NCBI GenBank assembly: GCA_947630485.1
Contig: CANRHU010000026.1
Coordinates: 1-42,928 of the forward strand
Source: an uncultured Lachnospiraceae bacterium
GTDB lineage: Bacteria > Bacillota > Clostridia > Lachnospirales > Lachnospiraceae
Direction: 5' to 3'
DNA length: 42,928 nucleotides
This document shows, piece after piece, positions 3,903 to 34,438 of the stretch. A program made the translations under genes and the position numbers. Each line of letters opens with the position of its first letter. Position 1 is the first letter of the stretch. The notes beneath the pieces are model-generated. The model was not told the origin of the DNA and ran no database searches. It saw nothing but the letters and a program-made list of their open reading frames with translations.

Positions 3903-3950
3903 AAATACAACAAACGCGTCACTGGCGCGTTTGTTGCATACTGACGTAAC
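3903..3950 (+). repeat. Hairpin repeat, copy 1
   Basis: AAATAC (3903-3908) is followed by a perfect 10-bp stem, AACAAACGCG (3909-3918) and CGCGTTTGTT (3926-3935), around loop TCACTGG. GCATACTGACGTAAC (3936-3950) follows. The architecture matches the copies at 4997, 6777, 6816, 13495, 13534, 25975 and 33989, but the stem bases differ. The repeat lies between the metallophosphoesterase stop and the terminator. Confidence 0.8.
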
Positions 3951-4000
3951 AAAAAAGAGTACCAGCCGTTCCTGACGGATAAGCTGATACTCTTATTTTT
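3951..4000. terminator. Bidirectional intrinsic terminator
   Basis: The 12-bp stem AAGAGTACCAGC (3955-3966) pairs with GCTGATACTCTT (3983-3994), with one wobble pair and a nested CCGT/ACGG stem in the loop. It is flanked by an A-run on the left and a T-rich run on the right. It can end the metallophosphoesterase transcript on plus and the PIN toxin transcript on minus. A near-identical hairpin is at 4934-4981. Confidence 0.75.
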
Positions 4001-4933: not shown

Positions 4934-4981
4934 AAAAAGAGTACCAGCCGCTCCTGATGGATAAGCTGATACTCTTTTTTT
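4934..4981. terminator. Bidirectional intrinsic terminator
   Basis: AAGAGTACCAGC (4937-4948) pairs with GCTGATACTCTT (4965-4976), followed by a T-run to 4981 on plus and by TTTTT on minus. It probably ends the lysS transcript on minus. It duplicates the hairpin at 3951-4000. Confidence 0.7.
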
Positions 4982-5029
4982 GTTACGTCAGTATGCGAAC
5001 AAAGCGCCAGCGACGCTTTGTTCGTATTG
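4982..5029 (-). repeat. Hairpin repeat, copy 2 (inverted)
   Basis: Read on minus: AATAC, then the perfect 10-bp stem GAACAAAGCG/CGCTTTGTTC (4997-5006 with 5014-5023), loop TCGCTGG, then GCATACTGACGTAAC (4982-4996). The downstream tail is identical to copy 1, but the stem differs and the orientation is opposite. Confidence 0.8.
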
Positions 5030-5209: not shown

Positions 5210-6703
5210 TTACGATAAAGTCTTCATTGTCGGGAACAGCAAAACATCCCGGATCGCCGGTGAATCCGTCAGAAGCATCACCAGGCGGTCGATGCCGTAG
5301 CCGATTCCTCCGGTCGGCGGCATACCGATCTCCAGGGCGTTTAAGAAGTCCTCGTCGGTATGGTTGGCTTCCTCGTCCCCGGCCGCGAACGCCGCCTCCT
5401 GGGCCGCGAAGCGGGCCCGCTGGTCGATCGGGTCGTTCAGCTCTGAGTAGGCGTTGCACATCTCGCGGGCGTAGATGAAGAGCTCAAAGCGCTCCACCAG
5501 CTCCGGCTTGTCTGGCTTGCGCTTGGTCAGAGGGCTGACCTCCACCGGATGATCCATGATAAAGGTCGGCTGAATCAGATGCTCCTCCACAAACTCCTCG
5601 AAGAAAAGGTTGATGATGTCGCCGCGGACGTGGCGTGCCTCGTAGTGGACGCCCTTCTCATCCGCCAGCTTCCTCGCTTCCTCCGTGGTTTTAATCTCCT
5701 CGAAATCGATGCCGGTATATTTCTTAATGGCGTCGATCATGGTCAGGCGTTCGAAAGGCTTTCCGAGATCGATTTCCACGCCGGAATAAGTGATCATGGT
5801 CGTGCCGCAGACCTCCTGGGCCACATGGCGGAACATGTTCTCCGTCAGGTCCATCATGCCGTGGTAGTCCGTATACGCCTGATAGAGTTCCATCAGCGTA
5901 AATTCCGGATTATGCCTCGTGTCCAGGCCCTCATTGCGGAAGACGCGGCCAATCTCATAGACACGCTCCATACCGCCTACGATCAGACGCTTTAAGTACA
6001 GCTCCAGGGAAATACGCAGCTTTACATCCTCATCCAGGGCGTTATAATGGGTCTCAAAGGGCCGCGCCGCCGCGCCGCCTGCGTTGGAAACCAGCATCGG
6101 CGTCTCCACCTCCAAAAAGCCCTGTCCGTCCAGATAGCGGCGGATGCTGCTGATGATCTTCGAGCGCATGACGAACGTCTTCTTCACGTCCTCATTCATG
6201 ATCAGATCCACATACCGCTGACGGTAACGCATATCCGTGTTGGTCAGGCCATGGTACTTCTCAGGCAGAATCTGCAGACTCTTGCTCAAAAGCGTCAGGG
6301 AAGAAGCGTGGATCGAAATCTCGCCGGTTTTCGTGGTAAAGACCGTACCGCGGATCCCGATAATATCGCCGATATCCATTTTTTTGAAATCTTTATAGGA
6401 GTCCTCCCCGATGCTGTCGCGGGCCACATAGCACTGGATATCGCCCTTTAAATCCTGAAGGTTGCAGAAGGAGGCCTTGCCCATGATACGCCGGGACATC
6501 ATGCGCCCCGCGACGGAAACTTCCCTGCCCTCCCACTCTTCATAATTATCTTTAATGTCTGCGCTATGGACGGTCACATCGTACTTTGTGATTTGAAACG
6601 GATCCCGGCCCGCCGCCTGAAGCTCCGCAAGCTTATCCCTGCGCACCTTAAGAAGCTGGCTGACATCCTGGCTGCTGTTCTGTCCTGCTGTGAATTCTGG
6701 CAT
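5210..6703 (-). CDS. lysS: Lysyl-tRNA synthetase, class II
   Basis: This 497-residue enzyme charges tRNA-Lys with lysine using ATP in the cytosol. It has an N-terminal OB-fold anticodon-binding domain (about residues 55-145, with [18 protein letters not shown]) and a class II catalytic core. Motif 1 is [10 protein letters not shown] near 195-204, motif 2 is [18 protein letters not shown] near 252-269, and motif 3 is [14 protein letters not shown] near 465-478. The start at 6703 is chosen because AAGGAGAG lies 8-10 nt upstream of MPEFTAGQ. The in-frame ATG at 6721 lies upstream of that ribosome site. greA is 159 bp upstream, with tandem hairpin repeats between the two genes. Confidence 0.97.
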
Positions 6704-6770: not shown

Positions 6771-6849
6771 CCATTCAGAAAAGGTGCCCATGGCACACTT
6801 TCTGTATTTCCATGCGAAGAAAGCGCGAGTGACGCTTTCTTCGTATTTG
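6771..6849 (-). repeat. Tandem hairpin repeats, copies 3 and 4
   Basis: Read on minus: AAATAC, a perfect 10-bp stem GAAGAAAGCG/CGCTTTCTTC (6816-6842) with loop TCACTCG, the 12-nt linker GCATGGAAATAC (6804-6815), then a second, imperfect hairpin (6777-6803) and a degenerate linker GAATGGAAAAC. The period is 39 nt. A further GC-rich hairpin of the same 27-nt size lies at about 6736-6762. Confidence 0.8.
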
Positions 6850-8897: not shown

Positions 8898-9872
8898 CTA
8901 TCGGGTCAGCAGCCTGCTGATCTCATACTGATCCTCCGGCAGATCCTTCTGCATCGCCAGGGCTTCCTGAATATCGAAATCCGTGTACTCGCCGTTCTTG
9001 TACGCAATGACGCGGTTGCTGACGCCGTTCGCCAAAAGCTCCACGGCCTTGGCGCCCATAATCGAGGCATAAACCCTGTCCTTACAGGTGGGACGGCCGC
9101 CGCGCTGCATGTAGCCCAGGATCGTGGCCCTCGCCTCAATTCCGGTGGCTGCCTCAATCCGGCGCGCCATGGAGGTGGAGTGGCCGATTCCCTCGGCGTT
9201 GATGATAATGTGATGCTTTTTGCCGATCTTGCGGTTCTCAATAATATGGTTAATCAGCACCTGTTCATTTCCGTCGTATTTCTCCGGAAGCAGGATATCT
9301 TCGGCGCCGTTGGCGATACCGCACCAGAGGGCGATATAGCCGGCATGACGGCCCATTACCTCGATGATACTGCAACGCTCATGGGAAGTGGACGTATCGC
9401 GGACCTTGTCGATCGCCTCCATGGCCGTATTTACAGCCGTGTCAAAGCCGATCGTATAGTCTGTGCAGGCGATATCCAGATCGATGGTGCCGGGCACGCC
9501 GATCGTATTGATGCCGAGCGCGGAAAGCTTCCCCGCTCCGCGGTAGGAGCCGTCGCCTCCGATGACGACAATACCGTCGATCCCGTGCTTTTTACAGATC
9601 TCCGCGCCCTTGCGCTGCCCTTCGGGAGTCATAAACTCCATACAGCGGGCCGTATAAAGAATCGTTCCGCCCTTATTGATAATCTCGGAAACCGAGGTTG
9701 TCTTCATATCGACGATCTCTTCCGCCAAAAGTCCGGCATATCCCCTCATAATGCCTTTCACCTTCAGGCCTCTGTTGATGCCTGTACGCACGACCGCACG
9801 GATTGCCGCATTCATACCGGGAGCGTCGCCTCCGCTTGTCAGGACGCCGATCGTCTTTACCGTTTTTGCCAT
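8898..9872 (-). CDS. pfkA: ATP-type 6-phosphofructokinase
   Basis: This 324-residue glycolytic enzyme phosphorylates fructose 6-phosphate to fructose 1,6-bisphosphate. LTSGGDAPGMNAAIR at residues 11-25 and GGDGSYRGA at 105-113 form the nucleotide site; Gly108 of GGDG points to ATP rather than pyrophosphate use. The catalytic loop reads GTIDLDIACTDYT (128-140): Asp131 and Asp133 are kept, but the Asn of the usual TIDND is Leu132. MGRHAGYIAL (173-182) and the C-terminal substrate motif QRGGRPTCKDRV are normal. AGGAGG lies 8 nt before the ATG. dnaE ends 65 nt upstream, so the order is dnaE-pfkA. Confidence 0.95.
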   Translation of the reverse strand: MAKTVKTIGVLTSGGDAPGMNAAIRAVVRTGINRGLKVKGIMRGYAGLLAEEIVDMKTTSVSEIINKGGTILYTARCMEFMTPEGQRKGAEICKKHGIDGIVVIGGDGSYRGAGKLSALGINTIGVPGTIDLDIACTDYTIGFDTAVNTAMEAIDKVRDTSTSHERCSIIEVMGRHAGYIALWCGIANGAEDILLPEKYDGNEQVLINHIIENRKIGKKHHIIINAEGIGHSTSMARRIEAATGIEARATILGYMQRGGRPTCKDRVYASIMGAKAVELLANGVSNRVIAYKNGEYTDFDIQEALAMQKDLPEDQYEISRLLTR

Positions 9873-9937: not shown

Positions 9938-12900
9938 CTAATTCATTTTACCGAGACTTTCAATATTTTTTTGCACGACTTTGACATTATTTTCACCCAA
10001 TAATTGGTAAAGATGCGAAAGAAGTCCGCTGTCGCAGGATACGCTCCGGTTCGGCGGCAGCACCTTCCGCGCCCGCTCCTTCGCCAGATAAATCGTCACG
10101 CCGTCGCGGCCGTCCGAATCCTTGAGGCAATCCATGACAGCCCCGATCTGCGCGTCATAAGCCTCCTTGTCCGCAAACTGCAGCCACAGCTGCTTCGGGA
10201 GACTGTCGAAGGGAATCACGCGCTCGCAGATCAGCTTTCCCACAGGATCGTCGCCGATGGAGGTGCGCCCCTGGATGAACACCTTAGCGTCCTCCTCCAA
10301 AACGTCCCTGTACTTCTCATAATCCCTTGGAAATACCAAAACCTCCACGCTGCCGACCAGGTCCTCCACCGTCACGTAAGCCATCATCTGACCGGTCTTT
10401 GTAGCCTTTACAGACTTATTCGTGATCATTCCGCCGATGGTGGCCTTCACGCCGTCCGCGACGGCCGCCTTCTCCGTCTCCTCATCCACCATGAAATCCG
10501 TGGTCACGGCGGTCACATTGGCGCGCCAGAGCTTCTCATAGGCCTCCAGGGGATGACCGCTGATATAAATACCGAGCATCTCCTTCTCAAACGCCAGAAG
10601 CTCTTCTTTCGTATACTCCGGGACGTCGGGGAAGGTCACCTGGAAATTCCTCCTGTCGTCCTCCGCCGCGAAATCGAACAGGGATATCTGGCCTTCCATG
10701 GCGTTTTTCTTCTCCTTATTCTTCTGTTCCAGCATATCCGGCGCCACCATGCATTTCTGCTGGCGGTTTCCGGGCAGGGAATCCAGCGCTCCCGCCTTGA
10801 TAAAGCTCTCCAGGGTCCGGCGGTTGACCTCCTTATTGCTCATCCGCTCCACAAATTCATCCATCGTGCGGAACGGGCCGTTTGCCTCGCGCTCGGCCAC
10901 GATCGTGTCCACGACCGCCCGGCCGATGCTTTTGATGGCGGAAAGTCCATAGCGGATCGCCCCGCCTGACACGGTGAAGCCGCTCTCCCCCTCGTTGATA
11001 TCCGGCGGAAGTATCGGAATGCCCATCTGGCGGCAGGTCAGAATGTACTCGGAAATCTTGTTCGTATTCTCCATGACGGACGTCATCAGCGCCGCGAAGA
11101 ACTCCTTCGGATAATAGCATTTCAGCCATGCCGTCTGGAACGCGACCACCGCGTAGCAGACCGCGTGGGACTTATTGAACGCGTAGCTCGCAAAGCTTGT
11201 CATCTCGTCAAAAATCGTGTTGGCCGTCTTCTCGTCGATCCCGTTCCTAACGCAGCCGCGGACGCCCTCCTCATCATTGCCGTAGACAAAATTCTGCCGC
11301 TCCTTCGCCATGACGGACGCTTTCTTTTTCGACATGGCGCGCCGCACCAGGTCGCTTCTTCCCATGGTGTATCCCGCCAGATCGCGGACAATCTGCATGA
11401 CCTGCTCCTGATAGACGATGCAGCCGTAGGTAGCGCTTAAGATCGGCTCCAGCTGGGGACAATCATATGTCACGGAGCTTTTCTCATTTTTCCCTTTCAG
11501 GTACTTCGGAATAAATTCCATGGGACCCGGACGGTACAGCGCGATGCCTGCGATGATATCCTCCAGCGTCTCCGGCTTGAGCTCCTTCATGAAGCTCTTC
11601 ATCCCGCTGCTCTCAAGCTGGAAAATGCCGTCGTCACGGCCGCTCCCGATCAGCTCCATGACGGCCGGGTCGTTATAATCCATCGTGTTAAAGTCCGGCT
11701 TTACGCCATAATTTTTCTCAATCTGCAAAACGGCGTCCTGAATGACCGTAAGCGTCCTCAGCCCGAGGAAATCCATTTTCAGAAGCCCCAGCTCCTCCAG
11801 CGTCGTCATCGTAAACTGGGTGGTCAGGGAACCGTCCGCCGCCCTTGAGAGAGGCACATAGTTGTCCACCGACGTCCGGCTGATCACAACGCCGGCCGCG
11901 TGCATGGAGGCGTGCCGCGGCAGCCCCTCCAGCCGCATGGACATATCGATCAAATATTTGACCTGCTCGTCTTCGTTATAGGCATTGCGCAGGTCCGGGC
12001 TGGCCTTTAACGCCTTCTCAAGCGTGATTCCCAGATCCCTAGGAATCATCTTGGCGACGGCGTCGCATTTATTATACGGAATATCCAGGGCGCGCCCCAC
12101 GTCCCGGATGACGCCGCGGGCCGCGAGCGTACCGAAGGTAATGATCTGCACCACCTGATCCTTGCCGTACTTGCGGACCACATAATCGATGACCTCCTGC
12201 CGGCGCTCGAAGCAGAAATCGATGTCGATATCCGGCATGGTGACGCGCTCCGGATTCAGGAACCGCTCAAACAGAAGGTTATAGCGGATCGGGTCGATAT
12301 CCGTGATCTCCAGGCAGTACGAGGTGATGGAACCGGCCGCGGAACCGCGGCCGGGCCCGACGCTGATTCCGCTCGATTTGGCGAAATGGATGAAATCCCA
12401 CACGATCAGGAAATAATCCACGTATCCCATGCTCTGAATCACGCCAAGCTCATAGTCCAGGCGTTTCCGCAGGGAGCCGTCCGGATCTGACGGATAACGC
12501 TTTGCCAATCCCTCGTCGCAGAGATGATTCAGATAGGTCCAGGAGTCATAACCGTCCGGCACATCGAATTTGGGGAGCTTCGTTACGCCGAACTCAATCT
12601 CCACATTGCAGCGCTTCGCAATCTCATACGTATTGTCCAGCGCCTCCTGCGCATAGGGGAAAAGCCTTCGCATCTCCTCCTCCGACTTGCAGTAATACTG
12701 GCCGCCCTCGTAGCGCATCCGGTTCTCGTCCGTGACCTTCTTGTTCGTCTGAATGCACAGAAGGATATCGTGGGCCGCCGCGTCCTCGGCGTTGATGTAA
12801 TGAATGTCGTTGGTGGCCACCAGCGGGACGCCGATCTCGCGGCTCAGTTTCATAAGCGCCTGATTCACCGTCTTCTGCGCCGGAATGCCGTGATCCTGCA

Positions 12901-13423
12901 GCTCCAGAAAATAATTGCCGCTCCCAAAGATGTCCAGATAGCGCAGGGCCGCCTCCTTTCCCTGCTGATAGAGCCCCCGCTCCAAATAGCGCTGCACCTC
13001 GCCGGCCAGGCAGGCGCTGAGGCAGATGATTCCCTGATGGTACCGGCGCAGGATCTCATAGTCCACGCGCGGCCGGTAATAGAAACCGTCCACGAAGCCC
13101 TTGGAGACAATTTTCATCAGATTCTGATAGCCTTCATTGTTCTCGGCCAGAAGAACCAGATGATAATATCGGTCCTCGCCCCGCACGTTCTCCCTGTCGA
13201 ACCGGGAGCCGGGCGCCACGTAGACCTCGCATCCCAGAATCGGTTTGATGCCGGCCGCCCTGGCCGCCTTATAGAAATCAATGACGCCGTACATCACGCC
13301 GTGATCCGTGATCGCCATGCTGTCCATGCCAAGCTCTTTCGCCCTTGCCACCAGCTCCCCGATCTTGCACGAGCCGTCCAGAAGACTGTACTCCGTATGA
13401 ACGTGAAGATGTGTAAATGCCAT
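9938..13423 (-). CDS. dnaE: DNA polymerase III alpha subunit (DnaE)
   Basis: This is a replicative polymerase subunit of 1161 residues. The N-terminal PHP domain starts THLHVHTEYSLLDGSCK. The palm carries PDIDIDFCF near residue 398, holding catalytic aspartates, with GPGRGSAAGS just before it. The C-terminal part has tandem helix-hairpin-helix sequence and an OB fold (IGGMITNKSVKATKTGQMMA, near residue 1000). It is the DnaE1/DnaE3 type, not PolC. The start is placed at 13423 (MAFTHLHVH) because GGAGGTGG lies just upstream. The frame stays open 21 codons further, into the hairpin repeat array, but that stretch is not conserved sequence. pfkA follows 65 nt after the stop. Confidence 0.96.
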   Translation of the reverse strand: MAFTHLHVHTEYSLLDGSCKIGELVARAKELGMDSMAITDHGVMYGVIDFYKAARAAGIKPILGCEVYVAPGSRFDRENVRGEDRYYHLVLLAENNEGYQNLMKIVSKGFVDGFYYRPRVDYEILRRYHQGIICLSACLAGEVQRYLERGLYQQGKEAALRYLDIFGSGNYFLELQDHGIPAQKTVNQALMKLSREIGVPLVATNDIHYINAEDAAAHDILLCIQTNKKVTDENRMRYEGGQYYCKSEEEMRRLFPYAQEALDNTYEIAKRCNVEIEFGVTKLPKFDVPDGYDSWTYLNHLCDEGLAKRYPSDPDGSLRKRLDYELGVIQSMGYVDYFLIVWDFIHFAKSSGISVGPGRGSAAGSITSYCLEITDIDPIRYNLLFERFLNPERVTMPDIDIDFCFERRQEVIDYVVRKYGKDQVVQIITFGTLAARGVIRDVGRALDIPYNKCDAVAKMIPRDLGITLEKALKASPDLRNAYNEDEQVKYLIDMSMRLEGLPRHASMHAAGVVISRTSVDNYVPLSRAADGSLTTQFTMTTLEELGLLKMDFLGLRTLTVIQDAVLQIEKNYGVKPDFNTMDYNDPAVMELIGSGRDDGIFQLESSGMKSFMKELKPETLEDIIAGIALYRPGPMEFIPKYLKGKNEKSSVTYDCPQLEPILSATYGCIVYQEQVMQIVRDLAGYTMGRSDLVRRAMSKKKASVMAKERQNFVYGNDEEGVRGCVRNGIDEKTANTIFDEMTSFASYAFNKSHAVCYAVVAFQTAWLKCYYPKEFFAALMTSVMENTNKISEYILTCRQMGIPILPPDINEGESGFTVSGGAIRYGLSAIKSIGRAVVDTIVAEREANGPFRTMDEFVERMSNKEVNRRTLESFIKAGALDSLPGNRQQKCMVAPDMLEQKNKEKKNAMEGQISLFDFAAEDDRRNFQVTFPDVPEYTKEELLAFEKEMLGIYISGHPLEAYEKLWRANVTAVTTDFMVDEETEKAAVADGVKATIGGMITNKSVKATKTGQMMAYVTVEDLVGSVEVLVFPRDYEKYRDVLEEDAKVFIQGRTSIGDDPVGKLICERVIPFDSLPKQLWLQFADKEAYDAQIGAVMDCLKDSDGRDGVTIYLAKERARKVLPPNRSVSCDSGLLSHLYQLLGENNVKVVQKNIESLGKMN

Positions 13424-13482
13424 GCGTACCACCTCCGATTTTCGATGCGGGAAGCGCGCCCCCCGTTTCCCGCACATTCTCT

Positions 13483-13572
13483 GCATGGAAATACAGAAAG
13501 CATGTCACCGGCATACTTTCTGCATGGAAATACGAAGAAAGCGTCACCGGCGTTTTCTTCGCATGGAAATAC
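13483..13572 (+). repeat. Tandem hairpin repeats, copies 5 and 6
   Basis: This is the clearest array. GCATGGAAATAC (13483-13494), a 27-nt hairpin (13495-13521, loop TCACCGG), GCATGGAAATAC (13522-13533), a 27-nt hairpin (13534-13560, loop TCACCGG), then GCATGGAAATAC (13561-13572). The period is exactly 39 nt. Stems AGAAAGCATG/CATACTTTCT and GAAGAAAGCG/CGTTTTCTTC differ in sequence but both pair, using G-U wobbles. It lies between the Crh-like gene's terminator and the dnaE start. Confidence 0.88.
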
Positions 13573-13616
13573 AAAAAACTTGCAGTCCGGGCGTCTTCCA
13601 AACCCCAGACTGCAAG
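13573..13616 (-). terminator. Intrinsic terminator after the Crh-like gene
   Basis: On minus, CTTGCAGTC (13616-13608) pairs with GACTGCAAG (13587-13579) and is followed by TTTTTT (13578-13573). It ends the hprK-murB-rapZ-whiA-Crh transcript before dnaE. Confidence 0.82.
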
Positions 13617-13689: not shown

Positions 13690-13944
13690 TCAGCCCTCCG
13701 TCAGATACTTCTCAATGCCGGCAATCGCCATCTCCTCGTCGGAGCCGTCCGCCGTCACTAAAATCTTTACGCCGGGCAAAAGTCCCAGGGTCATCATTCC
13801 CATGATGCTCTTGGCGTTCACCCTTTTGGAATCGCTTTCCACATAGATGCTGCTGTCATACTGGCTGGCCACCTGCACTAACATCGCCACCGGACGTGCC
13901 TCCAAGCCTGGATCCAACTCAATTGTAATCGATTTTTTCTGCAT
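13690..13944 (-). CDS. Crh-like HPr-family protein (His15 replaced by Glu)
   Basis: This is an 84-residue HPr fold protein. The active-site motif reads PGLEARPVA: position 15, the PEP-dependent phosphorylation His of true HPr, is Glu (codon GAG). The regulatory serine is kept at position 46 in NAKSIMGMM. This is the Crh pattern (Bacillus Crh has Gln15 and Ser46), and the location next to whiA matches B. subtilis crh. The likely role is as an HprK-phosphorylated corepressor partner in catabolite control, not sugar phosphotransfer. hprK is four genes upstream in the same cluster. GAGGAGGAAAG precedes the ATG. An HPr with an unusual His substitute is the same statement chemically; the functional role is inference. 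Confidence 0.9.
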   Translation of the reverse strand: MQKKSITIELDPGLEARPVAMLVQVASQYDSSIYVESDSKRVNAKSIMGMMTLGLLPGVKILVTADGSDEEMAIAGIEKYLTEG

Positions 13945-14951: not shown

Positions 14952-15845
14952 TCACTGACCGGATACCGGCACTTCAATCCGCCTGCCGATATCCTTATCC
15001 CGGTGCTCCAGCTTCAGTCCCATGGGCCGCAGCGCGCGCATATGACGGTAAAGCGCCTCCGCGATCGTCACGGACCGGTGCCTGCCGCCGGTACAGCCGA
15101 TGGCGATAACCAGCTGATTCTTTCCCTCCTGTACATAATTGGGAATCAGGAAATCGATCATATCATACAGCTTCTCCAGAAAGCACATCGCCGTCCCTCC
15201 CTGCATGACATAATCCCGCACAGCCTCCTCCTCGCCGGTCATCTGCTTTAACTGCTCCACATAAAAGGGATTCGGCAGGAAGCGGACGTCGAAAACCAGG
15301 TCCGCGTCTGACGGGATTCCGTACTTGAAGCCGAAAGAGAGCACGGTGACAAACAGATTGTCAAAGCTGCGGTTCTCCAGAAACAGCTTCTCCAGCTCAT
15401 GGCGCAGATCCTTTGTAAGAAGCTTGCTGGTGTCAAAGATATAGTCCGCCTCCTCCTTTAAAAACGCCAGCTTTTCCCGCTCTTTCACGATGCCGTGGTC
15501 GATACGCCCCGTCCCCGCAAGCGGATGGCTGCGCCGCGTCTCCTTATACCGCTTGATCAGCACCTCGTCGCTGCAGTCAAGAAAAAGGACGCTGCAGGAG
15601 ACATGCTCCTTCCGCCAGCCGCTCAAAATGCCGTCAAACTGCGGCAGCTCCTGACCGCTGCGGATATCGATGCCCAGGGCCACTCGCTCCGACACCCGCT
15701 CCGGATTCGACGCAAGCAGGGAGACAAACTGACTCATCAGCGGAATCGGCAGGTTATCCACACAGTAAAACCCCATATCCTCCAACATTTTCAGCGCCGC
15801 CGTCTTACCGGCGCCCGACATTCCGGTCACTACCACCAGTTCCAT
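14952..15845 (-). CDS. rapZ: RapZ/YvcJ family nucleotide-binding protein
   Basis: This is a 297-residue P-loop protein with Walker A GMSGAGKT at residues 8-15, CVDNLPIPLM near 27-36, and the C-terminal signature GCTGGRHRSVTIAE near 250-263. In Enterobacteria RapZ is an RNase adaptor controlling glmS through small RNAs. In Bacillus, YvcJ is an NTPase linked to competence, and which role applies here is unknown. The cluster order hprK-murB-rapZ-whiA-Crh is kept, with a gap of 23 nt to murB. Confidence 0.94.
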   Translation of the reverse strand: MELVVVTGMSGAGKTAALKMLEDMGFYCVDNLPIPLMSQFVSLLASNPERVSERVALGIDIRSGQELPQFDGILSGWRKEHVSCSVLFLDCSDEVLIKRYKETRRSHPLAGTGRIDHGIVKEREKLAFLKEEADYIFDTSKLLTKDLRHELEKLFLENRSFDNLFVTVLSFGFKYGIPSDADLVFDVRFLPNPFYVEQLKQMTGEEEAVRDYVMQGGTAMCFLEKLYDMIDFLIPNYVQEGKNQLVIAIGCTGGRHRSVTIAEALYRHMRALRPMGLKLEHRDKDIGRRIEVPVSGQ

Positions 15846-25942: not shown

Positions 25943-25971
25943 ATTATAACCGATTATCCCCAAAGAATCAA
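25943..25971 (-). promoter_or_regulatory. Sigma-A promoter of the second HAD gene
   Basis: On minus, TTGATT (25966-25971), a 17-bp spacer and TATAAT (25943-25948). A hairpin repeat copy lies immediately upstream of the -35. Confidence 0.75.
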
Positions 25972-25974
25972 GAC

Positions 25975-26016
25975 AAACAAAGCGTCACTGGCGCTTTGTT
26001 CGCATACTGACGTAAT
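25975..26016 (+). repeat. Hairpin repeat, copy 7
   Basis: ACAAAGCG pairs with CGCTTTGT within 25975-26001, loop TCACTGG (25985-25991), followed by GCATACTGACGTAAT (26002-26016). The tail matches copies 1 and 2. The left AAATAC is degenerate here. Confidence 0.8.
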
Positions 26017-32990: not shown

Positions 32991-34438
32991 ACGGGAAATT
33001 ATACTGGAAACAGAAAATACCGCTCCTTATTCTGAACGGCGCCGGCATGGCGGCGCTGACCGCTTTTCTCTTATTGAATGGGATCAACCGCGACAGCCTG
33101 ATCCTGATTTTATCTGTCTGGGGAGTGGTTTTGGGCGGGTATCTGGCCGGGGCATATCTTCTCAGAAAATCGCGGACGGATAAACTTTTAAGTTTGGCCG
33201 AACAGCTTAAGGAACGCTATTTGCTCCCGGAAGTGATGGAGCCGCCCCGCCGGGCTGACGATCAGGTGTTTTACCGTCTTCTGAAGCTGTCGGGAAAATC
33301 CATGCTGGAGCAGGTCAGCGAGGCCAAACGTGAGCAGGCTGAATACAGGGAGTACATCGAGCAGTGGATCCATGAGATCAAAACGCCCATCACCGCCATG
33401 AAGCTGATCTGCGAAAACCACAAATCGGATGTTTCAAACGATCTGCTCGTGGAGCTTGAACAGATAAACCGCTATACCGAGCAGGCCCTGTTCTATGCCA
33501 GAAGCGAACACCCGGAGAAGGATTATCTCGTGCGGGAAATCCGCCTTTTCGATGTGGTCCATCAGGCAATCGCGGAGAACAGATATCTGCTCCGTCAGTG
33601 CAACGTGCAGATCGTCTTGACGGAAACGGACGACTGCGTATATTCCGATGAAAAATGGCTGTGCTTTATCCTGAACCAGCTCATTGTCAACGCGGTCAAA
33701 TACCGCGCGGAATCGCCGCGCATCCGCTTTTTTGCGAAGCAAAACGGAAACGAAGTGTCGCTGTGTATCGCGGACAATGGCATAGGAATTACTGACAGCG
33801 ACCTCCCCCGCATATTTGAAAAGGGCTTCACCGAGGAAAACGGGCGAAGCGCTTCACAGACCTCGACAGGGATCGGGCTTTATCTGTGCAAACGCCTGTG
33901 CGATAAGCTGGGAATCGGACTAACCGCGGTTTCAGATGAAGAAACCGTTTTCACACTTTCTTTCCATATCAACGATCTCATCCAATACAGAAAGCGTGCC
34001 ACTGACACCCTTTCTGCATGGAAATACAAAAAAGAAACCTTATTTTCTTTCTGTTCTTATCACGATTTTGTGCTTCGGGATTACCGGGGCGGTATTGGTT
34101 CAGTTTACCCGACAAAACGGCGTTTACGCCGGAAACATTCCGAAGGAAATCAGCAACCGTTTTCAGGCAGCGGCGATTACCGCCGCCATCATCGGCATAT
34201 TCTCCATGTATCATTCCATCGTATGGATATTAGCGATCATCCGGGGCCGGAAAAAATGGAAAAACCGCGGGATCAATTCTGTGCTGCTCGGCAACCTCTC
34301 TCAAAAGGTTTATTCTACCGCAAAAATACTTTCGATTTCTACTTTGGCAATCACGGTCTCGCTGGTGGCCTTTGTGATCATGCCAATATTGGCGGAGATT
34401 TCCCAGCGAAGCTTCTTTATATGGGAGCGGGATTTTAA
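32987..34438 (+). CDS. BceS-like histidine kinase with an aberrant C-terminal tail
   Basis: Residues 1-332 are a complete small-sensor kinase: two N-terminal membrane helices (about 10-31 and 38-58) with almost no extracellular loop, H-box IEQWIHEIKTPITAMKL (His129), N-box NQLIVNAVKYR, IADNGIGI and TSTGIGLYLCKRLCDKLG. Such kinases sense peptide antibiotics through their ABC transporter. The true sequence ends near FTLSFHINDLI (base 33983). From base 33984 a hairpin repeat is fused on, and the ORF then runs out of frame over permease DNA for about 150 further residues with no homology. Kinase activity may survive, but its normal stop is lost. Confidence 0.82.
   Translation: MNGKLYWKQKIPLLILNGAGMAALTAFLLLNGINRDSLILILSVWGVVLGGYLAGAYLLRKSRTDKLLSLAEQLKERYLLPEVMEPPRRADDQVFYRLLKLSGKSMLEQVSEAKREQAEYREYIEQWIHEIKTPITAMKLICENHKSDVSNDLLVELEQINRYTEQALFYARSEHPEKDYLVREIRLFDVVHQAIAENRYLLRQCNVQIVLTETDDCVYSDEKWLCFILNQLIVNAVKYRAESPRIRFFAKQNGNEVSLCIADNGIGITDSDLPRIFEKGFTEENGRSASQTSTGIGLYLCKRLCDKLGIGLTAVSDEETVFTLSFHINDLIQYRKRATDTLSAWKYKKETLFSFCSYHDFVLRDYRGGIGSVYPTKRRLRRKHSEGNQQPFSGSGDYRRHHRHILHVSFHRMDISDHPGPEKMEKPRDQFCAARQPLSKGLFYRKNTFDFYFGNHGLAGGLCDHANIGGDFPAKLLYMGAGF

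Follow-up and report, generated by a model that had tools for sequence, protein, structure and literature searches.

Among the described systems that come closest to the repeat reported here are the REPs, palindromic repeats of the GTAG and CGTC types (PMC3733652, PMC2817692), for which TnpA-REP/RAYT transposases have been described (PMC8266576). A second group for comparison are the PATEs (palindrome-associated transposable elements), described in Haloquadratum, with one PATE-like sequence in Halanaerobium. A 52-bp form of them is possibly mobilised, and they serve as targets of other mobile elements (PMC3119063, PMC7290912); for hairpin recognition a conserved loop motif has been proposed (PMC7290912).

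Our analysis concerns a window of 42,928 nt, i.e. one contig (CANRHU010000026.1) out of the 118 that make up a draft genome of 3.26 Mb from an uncultured Lachnospiraceae bacterium. A first-pass annotation of this stretch, made from the letters alone, had pointed out a dispersed hairpin repeat with fixed loop and flanks and changing stems. No paper describing this repeat was found in literature searches on repeats of this type. No Rfam family reached its gathering score anywhere in the window, and there was for one 201-base stretch with a perfect unit a sub-threshold match alone (E 0.24), outside the hairpin. The evidence presented below makes it rather likely that these are REP/PATE-like miniature hairpin elements without genes, which are moved in trans, inserted beside terminators and stacked into arrays; as judged from sequence comparison, their mobile, non-autonomous nature is well supported.

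Hairpin units of the window

Eight hairpins had been claimed for the window and all of them are there (units 3903+, 4993-, 6773-, 6812-, 13489+, 13528+, 25969+ and 33983+), and in each of them the arms pair at 9 or 10 of 10 positions if G-T is allowed. The units and the hairpins adjoining them are as follows.

3903..3949, plus strand: single unit with AACAAACGCG stem, 10/10 pairs, ends with ACTGACGTAA
3957..3992: terminator-like hairpin touching the right end of unit 3903
4939..4974: terminator-like hairpin touching unit 4993
4983..5029, minus strand: unit 4993, single, with GAACAAAGCG stem, ends with ACTGACGTAA
6773..6809, minus strand: unit 2 of a two-unit array, AGAAAGTGTG stem, loop decayed, 9/10 pairs
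6812..6848, minus strand: unit 1 of the same two-unit array, GAAGAAAGCG stem, 10/10 pairs
13489..13525, plus strand: unit 1 of the reported array, AGAAAGCATG stem, 9/10 pairs
13528..13564, plus strand: unit 2 of the reported array, GAAGAAAGCG stem, 10/10 pairs; the array has a 39-nt period
13565..13572, plus strand: GGAAATAC, right end of the reported array
13579..13616: terminator-like hairpin CTTGCAGTC...GACTGCAAG touching the reported array
25969..26015, plus strand: single unit with AAACAAAGCG stem, 9/10 pairs, ends with ACTGACGTAA
26023..26071: terminator-like hairpin TGCCTGC...GCAGGCA touching unit 25969
33983..34019, plus strand: single unit with AGAAAGCGTG stem, 9/10 pairs, followed by GGAAATAC

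The reported array and its hairpin lie between an HPr-like gene (13690-13944, minus strand) and the gene for DNA polymerase III alpha (9938-13486, minus strand). The hairpins at 3957-3992 and 4939-4974 are nearly identical, stand 1 kb apart and have the same plus-strand orientation; their units are on opposite sides, a plus-strand unit to the left of the former and a minus-strand unit to the right of the latter.

Each unit reads [N]AATAC, an arm, TCACYGG (or CCACTGG), the other arm and GCAT. Its right end is of one of two types, GGAAA and ACTGACGTAA, and the next unit can follow either of them, so that arrays have periods of 39 and 44 nt. The 39-nt tandem arrays proposed by the annotation are hence real and have 44-nt counterparts. 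Both sequences that it saw after GCAT exist as well, with the correction that ACTGACGTAA is not solely terminal, since ACTGACGTAATAC also serves as spacer in arrays of the 44-nt period. The basic element can be written as TAC, a 10-bp stem with loop TCACYGG, and GCATACTGACGTAA, about 44 nt in all; an alternative form has the GCATGGAAA end and the 39-nt period. Directly left of the first unit's TAC stands AA (88% and 94% of 136 first units, all loci), with no strong conservation farther left, and AA is the element's own right end. Within arrays the units stand head to tail. The element ends share just the 3-nt complement TAC/GTA and otherwise no inverted repeats, and the element is without coding capacity.

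Pairing and turnover of the units

Further copies, on which the annotation had made its proposal depend, are plentiful in the source genome. A strict pattern of left foot, arm length and loop matches 68 times (43 and 25 per strand) against 1 match for the same pattern reversed, and a longer pattern with up to 3 mismatches matches 209 times against 1 for the control. Sixty stretches were fetched around copies among the matches listed, which do not amount to a whole-genome sample, and units were selected in them by scoring feet and loop alone, so that pairing was not selected for. This yielded 130 units, 117 of them distinct, as compared to 1 in mononucleotide-shuffled sequence. The GCAT foot (ATGC on the other strand) is present in 112-115 of 117 units per base, a value inflated by the fact that selection was partly on the foot.

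That the arms vary between copies and pair all the same holds far beyond the window. The 130 units have 57 distinct arms at the 5' side and 66 at the 3' side, and the 117 distinct units have on average 8.71 of 10 pairs, compared to 7.41 when 3' arms are shuffled among units (the highest of 1000 shuffles gave 7.68). Pairing thus persists in the additional copies, with 87.1% of cells paired versus 74.2% after shuffling, and the covariation score is 0.498 versus 0.275; neither observed value was reached by any of 500 shuffles. Two-sided changes occur at all 10 stem pairs, which is matched by 13 of 500 shuffles, and sliding the partner by 1-3 columns lets pairing fall to 39-55%. Covariation of the stems around a fixed loop and fixed flanks is confirmed by these comparisons.

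The arrays themselves are not stable. A difference of one 39-nt unit at AAATACG (AATACG repeats) separates L067 from L018, with both flanks aligned; it could be a gain or a loss. Three further loci are homologous sites with flank identities of 85-92%: L134 holds two units, with arms AAGCAAAGCA/CGCCTTGCTT and then AAAAACGCG/CGCGTTTTTT; L011 holds one unit, composed of a 5' arm of the first type (AAGCAAGGCG, which pairs with CGCCTTGCTT throughout) and a 3' arm of the second type; and L104 holds a single unit which is entirely of the second type. Two deletions between different direct repeats would explain L011 and L104. Arrays are thereby shown to contract in two registers and to leave hybrid stems behind. 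Eight pairs or fewer are found in 42 of the 130 units, and in 20 of these 42 each arm fully pairs with an arm elsewhere (G-T allowed); mispaired stems are therefore often recombination products.

Selection for an RNA on one strand should make G-U more frequent than A-C, which is its form on the other strand. Among the stem mismatches we counted 73 G-T plus T-G and 78 A-C plus C-A (p 0.74). In the small sample of trusted orthologous pairs (L182/L183, L011/L104, L131/L111 and L087/L116) a pair was lost, or kept via one side, or an arm was swapped, with no clear compensation. Two two-sided changes that preserve pairing were seen in L095/L078, whose arrays differ, and are read as unit turnover. 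Excluded from this comparison were the L203 set, which was false (coding sequence present in many genomes), L087 versus L024 (coding) and a second, misaligned L095/L078 unit. Since orthologous stems decay and neither strand is preferred, the covariation is most likely the outcome of selection during movement and not at the resting site.

Distribution and insertion sites

A covariance model search of 61 relatives, including 26 genomes of the genus, found units in 16, namely in 15 of the 26 genus genomes and in G060. Under strict filters, copy numbers are at least 62-138 in ten of the genus genomes and at least 1-9 in five. A FastTree phylogeny of three stretches homologous to positions 5250-6600, 8950-9872 and 9990-13400 of the window, with the root placed at the midpoint, separates the 15 unit-bearing genomes from the 11 without detected units with a support of 1.000. 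The 15 carriers form one clade, and the unit has one origin within the genus. G060, which lies outside the genus, was discarded as a carrier, having three weak matches and, at the one locus fetched, a different hairpin. A survey of the family covered 397 genomes (two with matches from this genus) with 17 candidates scored per genome; outside the genus the sole match at E 1e-6 was G079, with one copy. At L250 (~1501-1537) this genome of another genus holds a good unit, AAAAAATGTG TCACTGG CACATTTTTT, and the copy is plausible. An exact 27-base search of named genomes returned 46 stretches, 46/46 from uncultured Lachnospiraceae, and 46/46 isolate names start with Lapin (by name, rabbit gut). A virus link was dropped: one IMG/VR pattern match fell inside a phage reading frame and showed no pairing, hence chance.

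For the position relative to genes, 93 elements were considered, with genes called by a simple hexamer script whose gene ends are approximate. Twelve elements lay inside gene calls and 2 had no neighbour, leaving 79, and in 62 of these the right-hand gene faces the element (43 antisense to both neighbours, 19 convergent); 13 elements are in sense orientation and 4 divergent. The split between antisense and sense, 43:13, has a p of 7e-5. The right 75 nt fold more stably than shuffled sequence, with a mean z of -2.89 and z < -2 in 58/93, as compared to a mean z of -0.41 and 8/93 for left flanks; gene 3' flanks free of elements are intermediate (mean z -0.94, z < -2 in 27/119). In the folds listed, right flanks often open with an A-rich tract that is followed by a GC-rich hairpin, and on the opposite strand the right flank is often a terminator whose T-tract touches the element. 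The annotation had regarded the orientation of the repeat as inconsistent with respect to genes, which is wrong because this terminator-related polarity exists. The fixed polarity is a majority rule, as 35 of 93 right flanks fail z -2. A replication-strand bias was also considered and set aside: GC skew tracks gene direction (r 0.84) too closely to separate transcription from replication, and in a less confounded subset the signal is weak, with 26/35 elements on the negative-skew strand (p 0.006).

Filled and empty sites were read from synteny across the genus, and presence at homologous sites, a check proposed by the annotation, does differ between lineages. The reported site is readable in 12 other clade genomes (G011 and G017 left out). 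Its hairpin CTTGCAGT...ACTGCAAG is accompanied by two units in G000 and by one decayed unit each in G003 and G014, and it is free of units in G001, G008, G012, G018 and G021; G007, G019, G020, G023 and G025 have other hairpins at this site and no unit by the criterion used. Of the genomes with the hairpin next to 4993, G000 and G008 carry a unit there and G001, G003 and G021 do not; the right boundary is GTAA|CAAAA and the left side is unalignable. The terminator-like hairpin therefore most simply came first, since it occurs without the element, and the comparison would most simply be explained by a lineage-specific gain of the unit beside a pre-existing hairpin.

Further sites in L055 show the same variability. 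At 13534 the unit is absent in 12 of 13 other genomes, 9 of which keep RTAAAT at the left junction; in the own genome a 44-nt segment lies between direct repeats AATACAAAAAA, and divergence of the right flanks precludes their alignment. At 15061 a unit is present in 4 of 13 other genomes, with differing stems, and at 2504, occupied by a perfect unit in the own genome, in 0 of 7. The sites homologous to the latter in L244 (G019) and L233 (G014) carry what appear to be strongly decayed unit relics, GCGTCACTTGGTGCC and TTCACTGACGCTC. The sole site at which both sides of a whole element could be read is a conserved gene 3' end, which is empty and AAGCAATTCAGAAGGGG-like in L216, L219 and L224 and filled in L222 (AAGCAATT-44 nt-CAGAAGGGG), with no duplication beyond 1 ambiguous base; the copies compared are gene ends with homology but without proof of orthology, and their junction deviates from the consensus by ~1 nt.

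This empty site was supplied by a candidate for a longer parent element, an 86-nt sequence that stands left of two G017 copies and recurs in 10/26 genomes. It proved to be a gene 3' end with its terminator, mostly unit-free, and hence not a parent element. The C-terminus that it encodes may be that of pyruvate phosphate dikinase. The gene 3' end and terminator are found several times on one contig in the same orientation with other genes between (L212-L229; G017:C15, G011:C74, G001:C132 and others), an arrangement that resembles a genomic-island attachment site.

Probable mode of movement and related systems

As the annotation had advised, we looked for a transposase of the REP type or a reverse transcriptase whose ends match the unit, and found neither. 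The own genome has one Y1_Tnp (IS200-like) fragment with a unit found on one side; this remnant lies at L039 ~2274-2470 on the minus strand. Y1_Tnp (PF01797) is present in 10/26 genus genomes and was not detected in 6 of the 10 unit-rich drafts (G001, G003, G008, G012, G018 and G023, 80-94% complete); on these grounds a resident Y1 transposase was rejected as mover. Reverse transcriptase was rejected likewise, since RVT_1 (PF00078), present in 20/26 genus genomes, was not detected in the rich drafts G003 and G007. Nine genes in the fetched DNA of the own genome have units at most 250 nt away at either end, and 0/9 are transposases (by Pfam: DHDPS, peptidase C1-like, ATPase_2/DUF234, glycosyl hydrolase 3, HSP90, PALP, acetyltransferase, choline-binding repeats and class II (D, K, N) tRNA synthetase).

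The rich genomes have 9 Y1_Tnp matches, and a unit is found in the fetched surroundings of 4, one of which is the own-genome remnant. Immediately 3' of GTATT, which is the AATAC unit end in reverse complement, an IS200-like left end is found in three loci, L113 (~4885, minus), L140 (~1296, minus) and L143 (~1297, plus), so that a Y1-type element uses the same junctions as the unit. The end in L113 was recognised by motif, with no transposase gene seen there; in L140 ACGTCAGTAAGC follows on the right, and the IS hence sits within a unit junction. Another IS200-like copy, in L142 (~1296, plus), lies behind a terminator T-run. Unit junctions or terminators may be the targets of these IS copies, and the IS either uses the unit as target or shares its insertion rule. 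By reading, the IS200-like hairpins are unlike the unit's hairpin, and at its right end the IS has no GTATT.

For mobile elements of the kind we favour, a transposase supplied in trans would recognise the folded hairpin on single-stranded DNA through the fixed loop and feet, leaving the stem sequence free, and movement would resemble the handling of IS200/IS605 and REP elements by HUH Y1 enzymes. Movement probably takes place as single-stranded DNA; for a mechanism that acts on a single-strand hairpin we see the chances as even. Each insertion would recreate the AA target at the element's own right end, so that later insertions could stack. Stem variants would remain paired because unpaired copies do not move, and copies would drift once inserted. 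A preference for terminators might arise from recognition of their hairpin or AT tract by the enzyme, or from the harmlessness of insertions there. A more far-reaching version, which we consider doubtful, has a hairpin read by its shape, not its stem sequence, and inserted beside terminators by an undescribed system, with stacking on its own target and with stems renewed by intrastrand (templated) repair; templated repair of the folded strand would explain the many different matched arms around one fixed loop.

The covariation could also be caused by RNA selection, if the unit were a structured RNA in 3' or 5' untranslated regions, e.g. an mRNA stabiliser, an attenuator or a protein-binding site. 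Strong covariation, the fixed loop and feet and the position near gene ends would fit such a role, as would the pairing-preserving changes in L095/L078, and REPs are thought to act as RNA in many cases (PMC3733652). However, the mismatches favour neither strand, the unit comes after the terminator-like hairpin as seen from the facing gene and is antisense to both neighbours in 43 of 79 elements, trusted orthologous stems decay and sites differ between lineages, which together make an RNA function improbable. Mobile DNA fits better because orthologous stems mostly decay and G-T equals A-C. The annotation's "mobile or RNA-structured repeat" is thus upheld in its first half, a non-autonomous mobile repeat being indicated by dispersal, filled and empty sites and lack of coding capacity, and is not borne out in its second, given mismatches without strand bias and orthologous stems that decay or swap arms. 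That old tandem repeats are kept by slippage and gene conversion alone, with no transposition, is hardly credible: array contraction and arm swapping are indeed seen, but slippage can neither bring the same 44 nt to scores of unrelated hairpins nor make lineage-specific single insertions.

As to the mover, an IS200-type Y1 transposase of the genus acting on the unit in trans is unlikely in our view. The left ends 3' of GTATT in L113, L140 and L143, the units near 4 of 9 Y1_Tnp matches and the L142 copy behind a T-run speak for it, whereas the lack of detected PF01797 in six rich drafts and the dissimilar hairpins and right end speak against it, and an IS that uses unit junctions as targets explains these data equally. 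Very improbable is a retro-mechanism akin to that of group IIC introns, in which an RNA copy would be reverse-transcribed into the T-tract behind terminators. Bacterial-C group II introns do insert immediately behind Rho-independent terminators (PMC8919778), but RVT_1 went undetected in the rich genomes G003 and G007, and the window, without an Rfam match at the gathering threshold, shows no known intron RNA.

The mobile, gene-less hairpins that we favour would be an additional family of the REP/PATE kind, found in gut Lachnospiraceae and following two unusual rules, namely insertion against terminators in one orientation and growth of arrays via a recreated target. They further suggest that strong base-pair covariation is possible in a mobile DNA hairpin without RNA function, which is a trap for structured-RNA searches. 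A clade with 1 to at least 138 copies per genome may serve as a natural system for finding the mover.

REPs resemble the unit in being small single hairpins with a conserved unpaired foot, usually in more than 100 copies per genome, and in lying mostly downstream of genes, between convergent or same-direction genes; for CGTC REPs a dedicated transposase is likewise not known (PMC3733652). They differ in that their tag is GTAG or CGTC, whereas the foot of the unit is ATGC (reverse strand), and in that the CGTC REP stem has 8-9 bp and the loop 4-5 nt, compared to 10 bp and 7 nt in the unit. REP dimers are mostly head-to-head, in contrast to the head-to-tail units with their free stem sequence, and REPs moved by RAYTs flank a Y1 transposase gene, whereas no unit-flanked RAYT was found here. 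Membership in the CGTC REPs was attractive, as ACTGACGTAA holds the reverse complement of CGTC; in the unit CGTC occurs only farther out, within this end type, and membership was rejected on structure. A MITE of a DDE transposon was rejected as well, as the ends are not inverted repeats beyond TAC/GTA and there is no duplication at the one two-sided site.

Group IIC introns share the niche directly behind Rho-independent terminators; they are retroelements with an intron-encoded reverse transcriptase, unlike a unit of 44 nt with the enzyme undetected in two rich genomes. BOX elements of Streptococcus pneumoniae are similarly dispersed and modular with a variable number of internal units, have array lengths that vary between strains and are enriched between convergent genes. 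They differ by boxA/boxC ends with terminal inverted repeats and by target duplications (PMC3049150); judged by structure, the unit ends have neither long terminal modules nor terminal inverted repeats. PATEs, like the unit, are palindromic, without terminal inverted repeats and too short for a transposase (PMC3119063, PMC7290912), and show no target duplication, as is the case at the one two-sided site of the unit, a second site being consistent but blurred. PATE palindromes resemble those of resident IS605-type elements, whereas no such IS was found in the incomplete drafts here. IS200/IS605 elements insert on the 3' side of a short fixed target and leave no duplication; the AA left of the unit and the absence of duplication at one site may be compatible with this mode.
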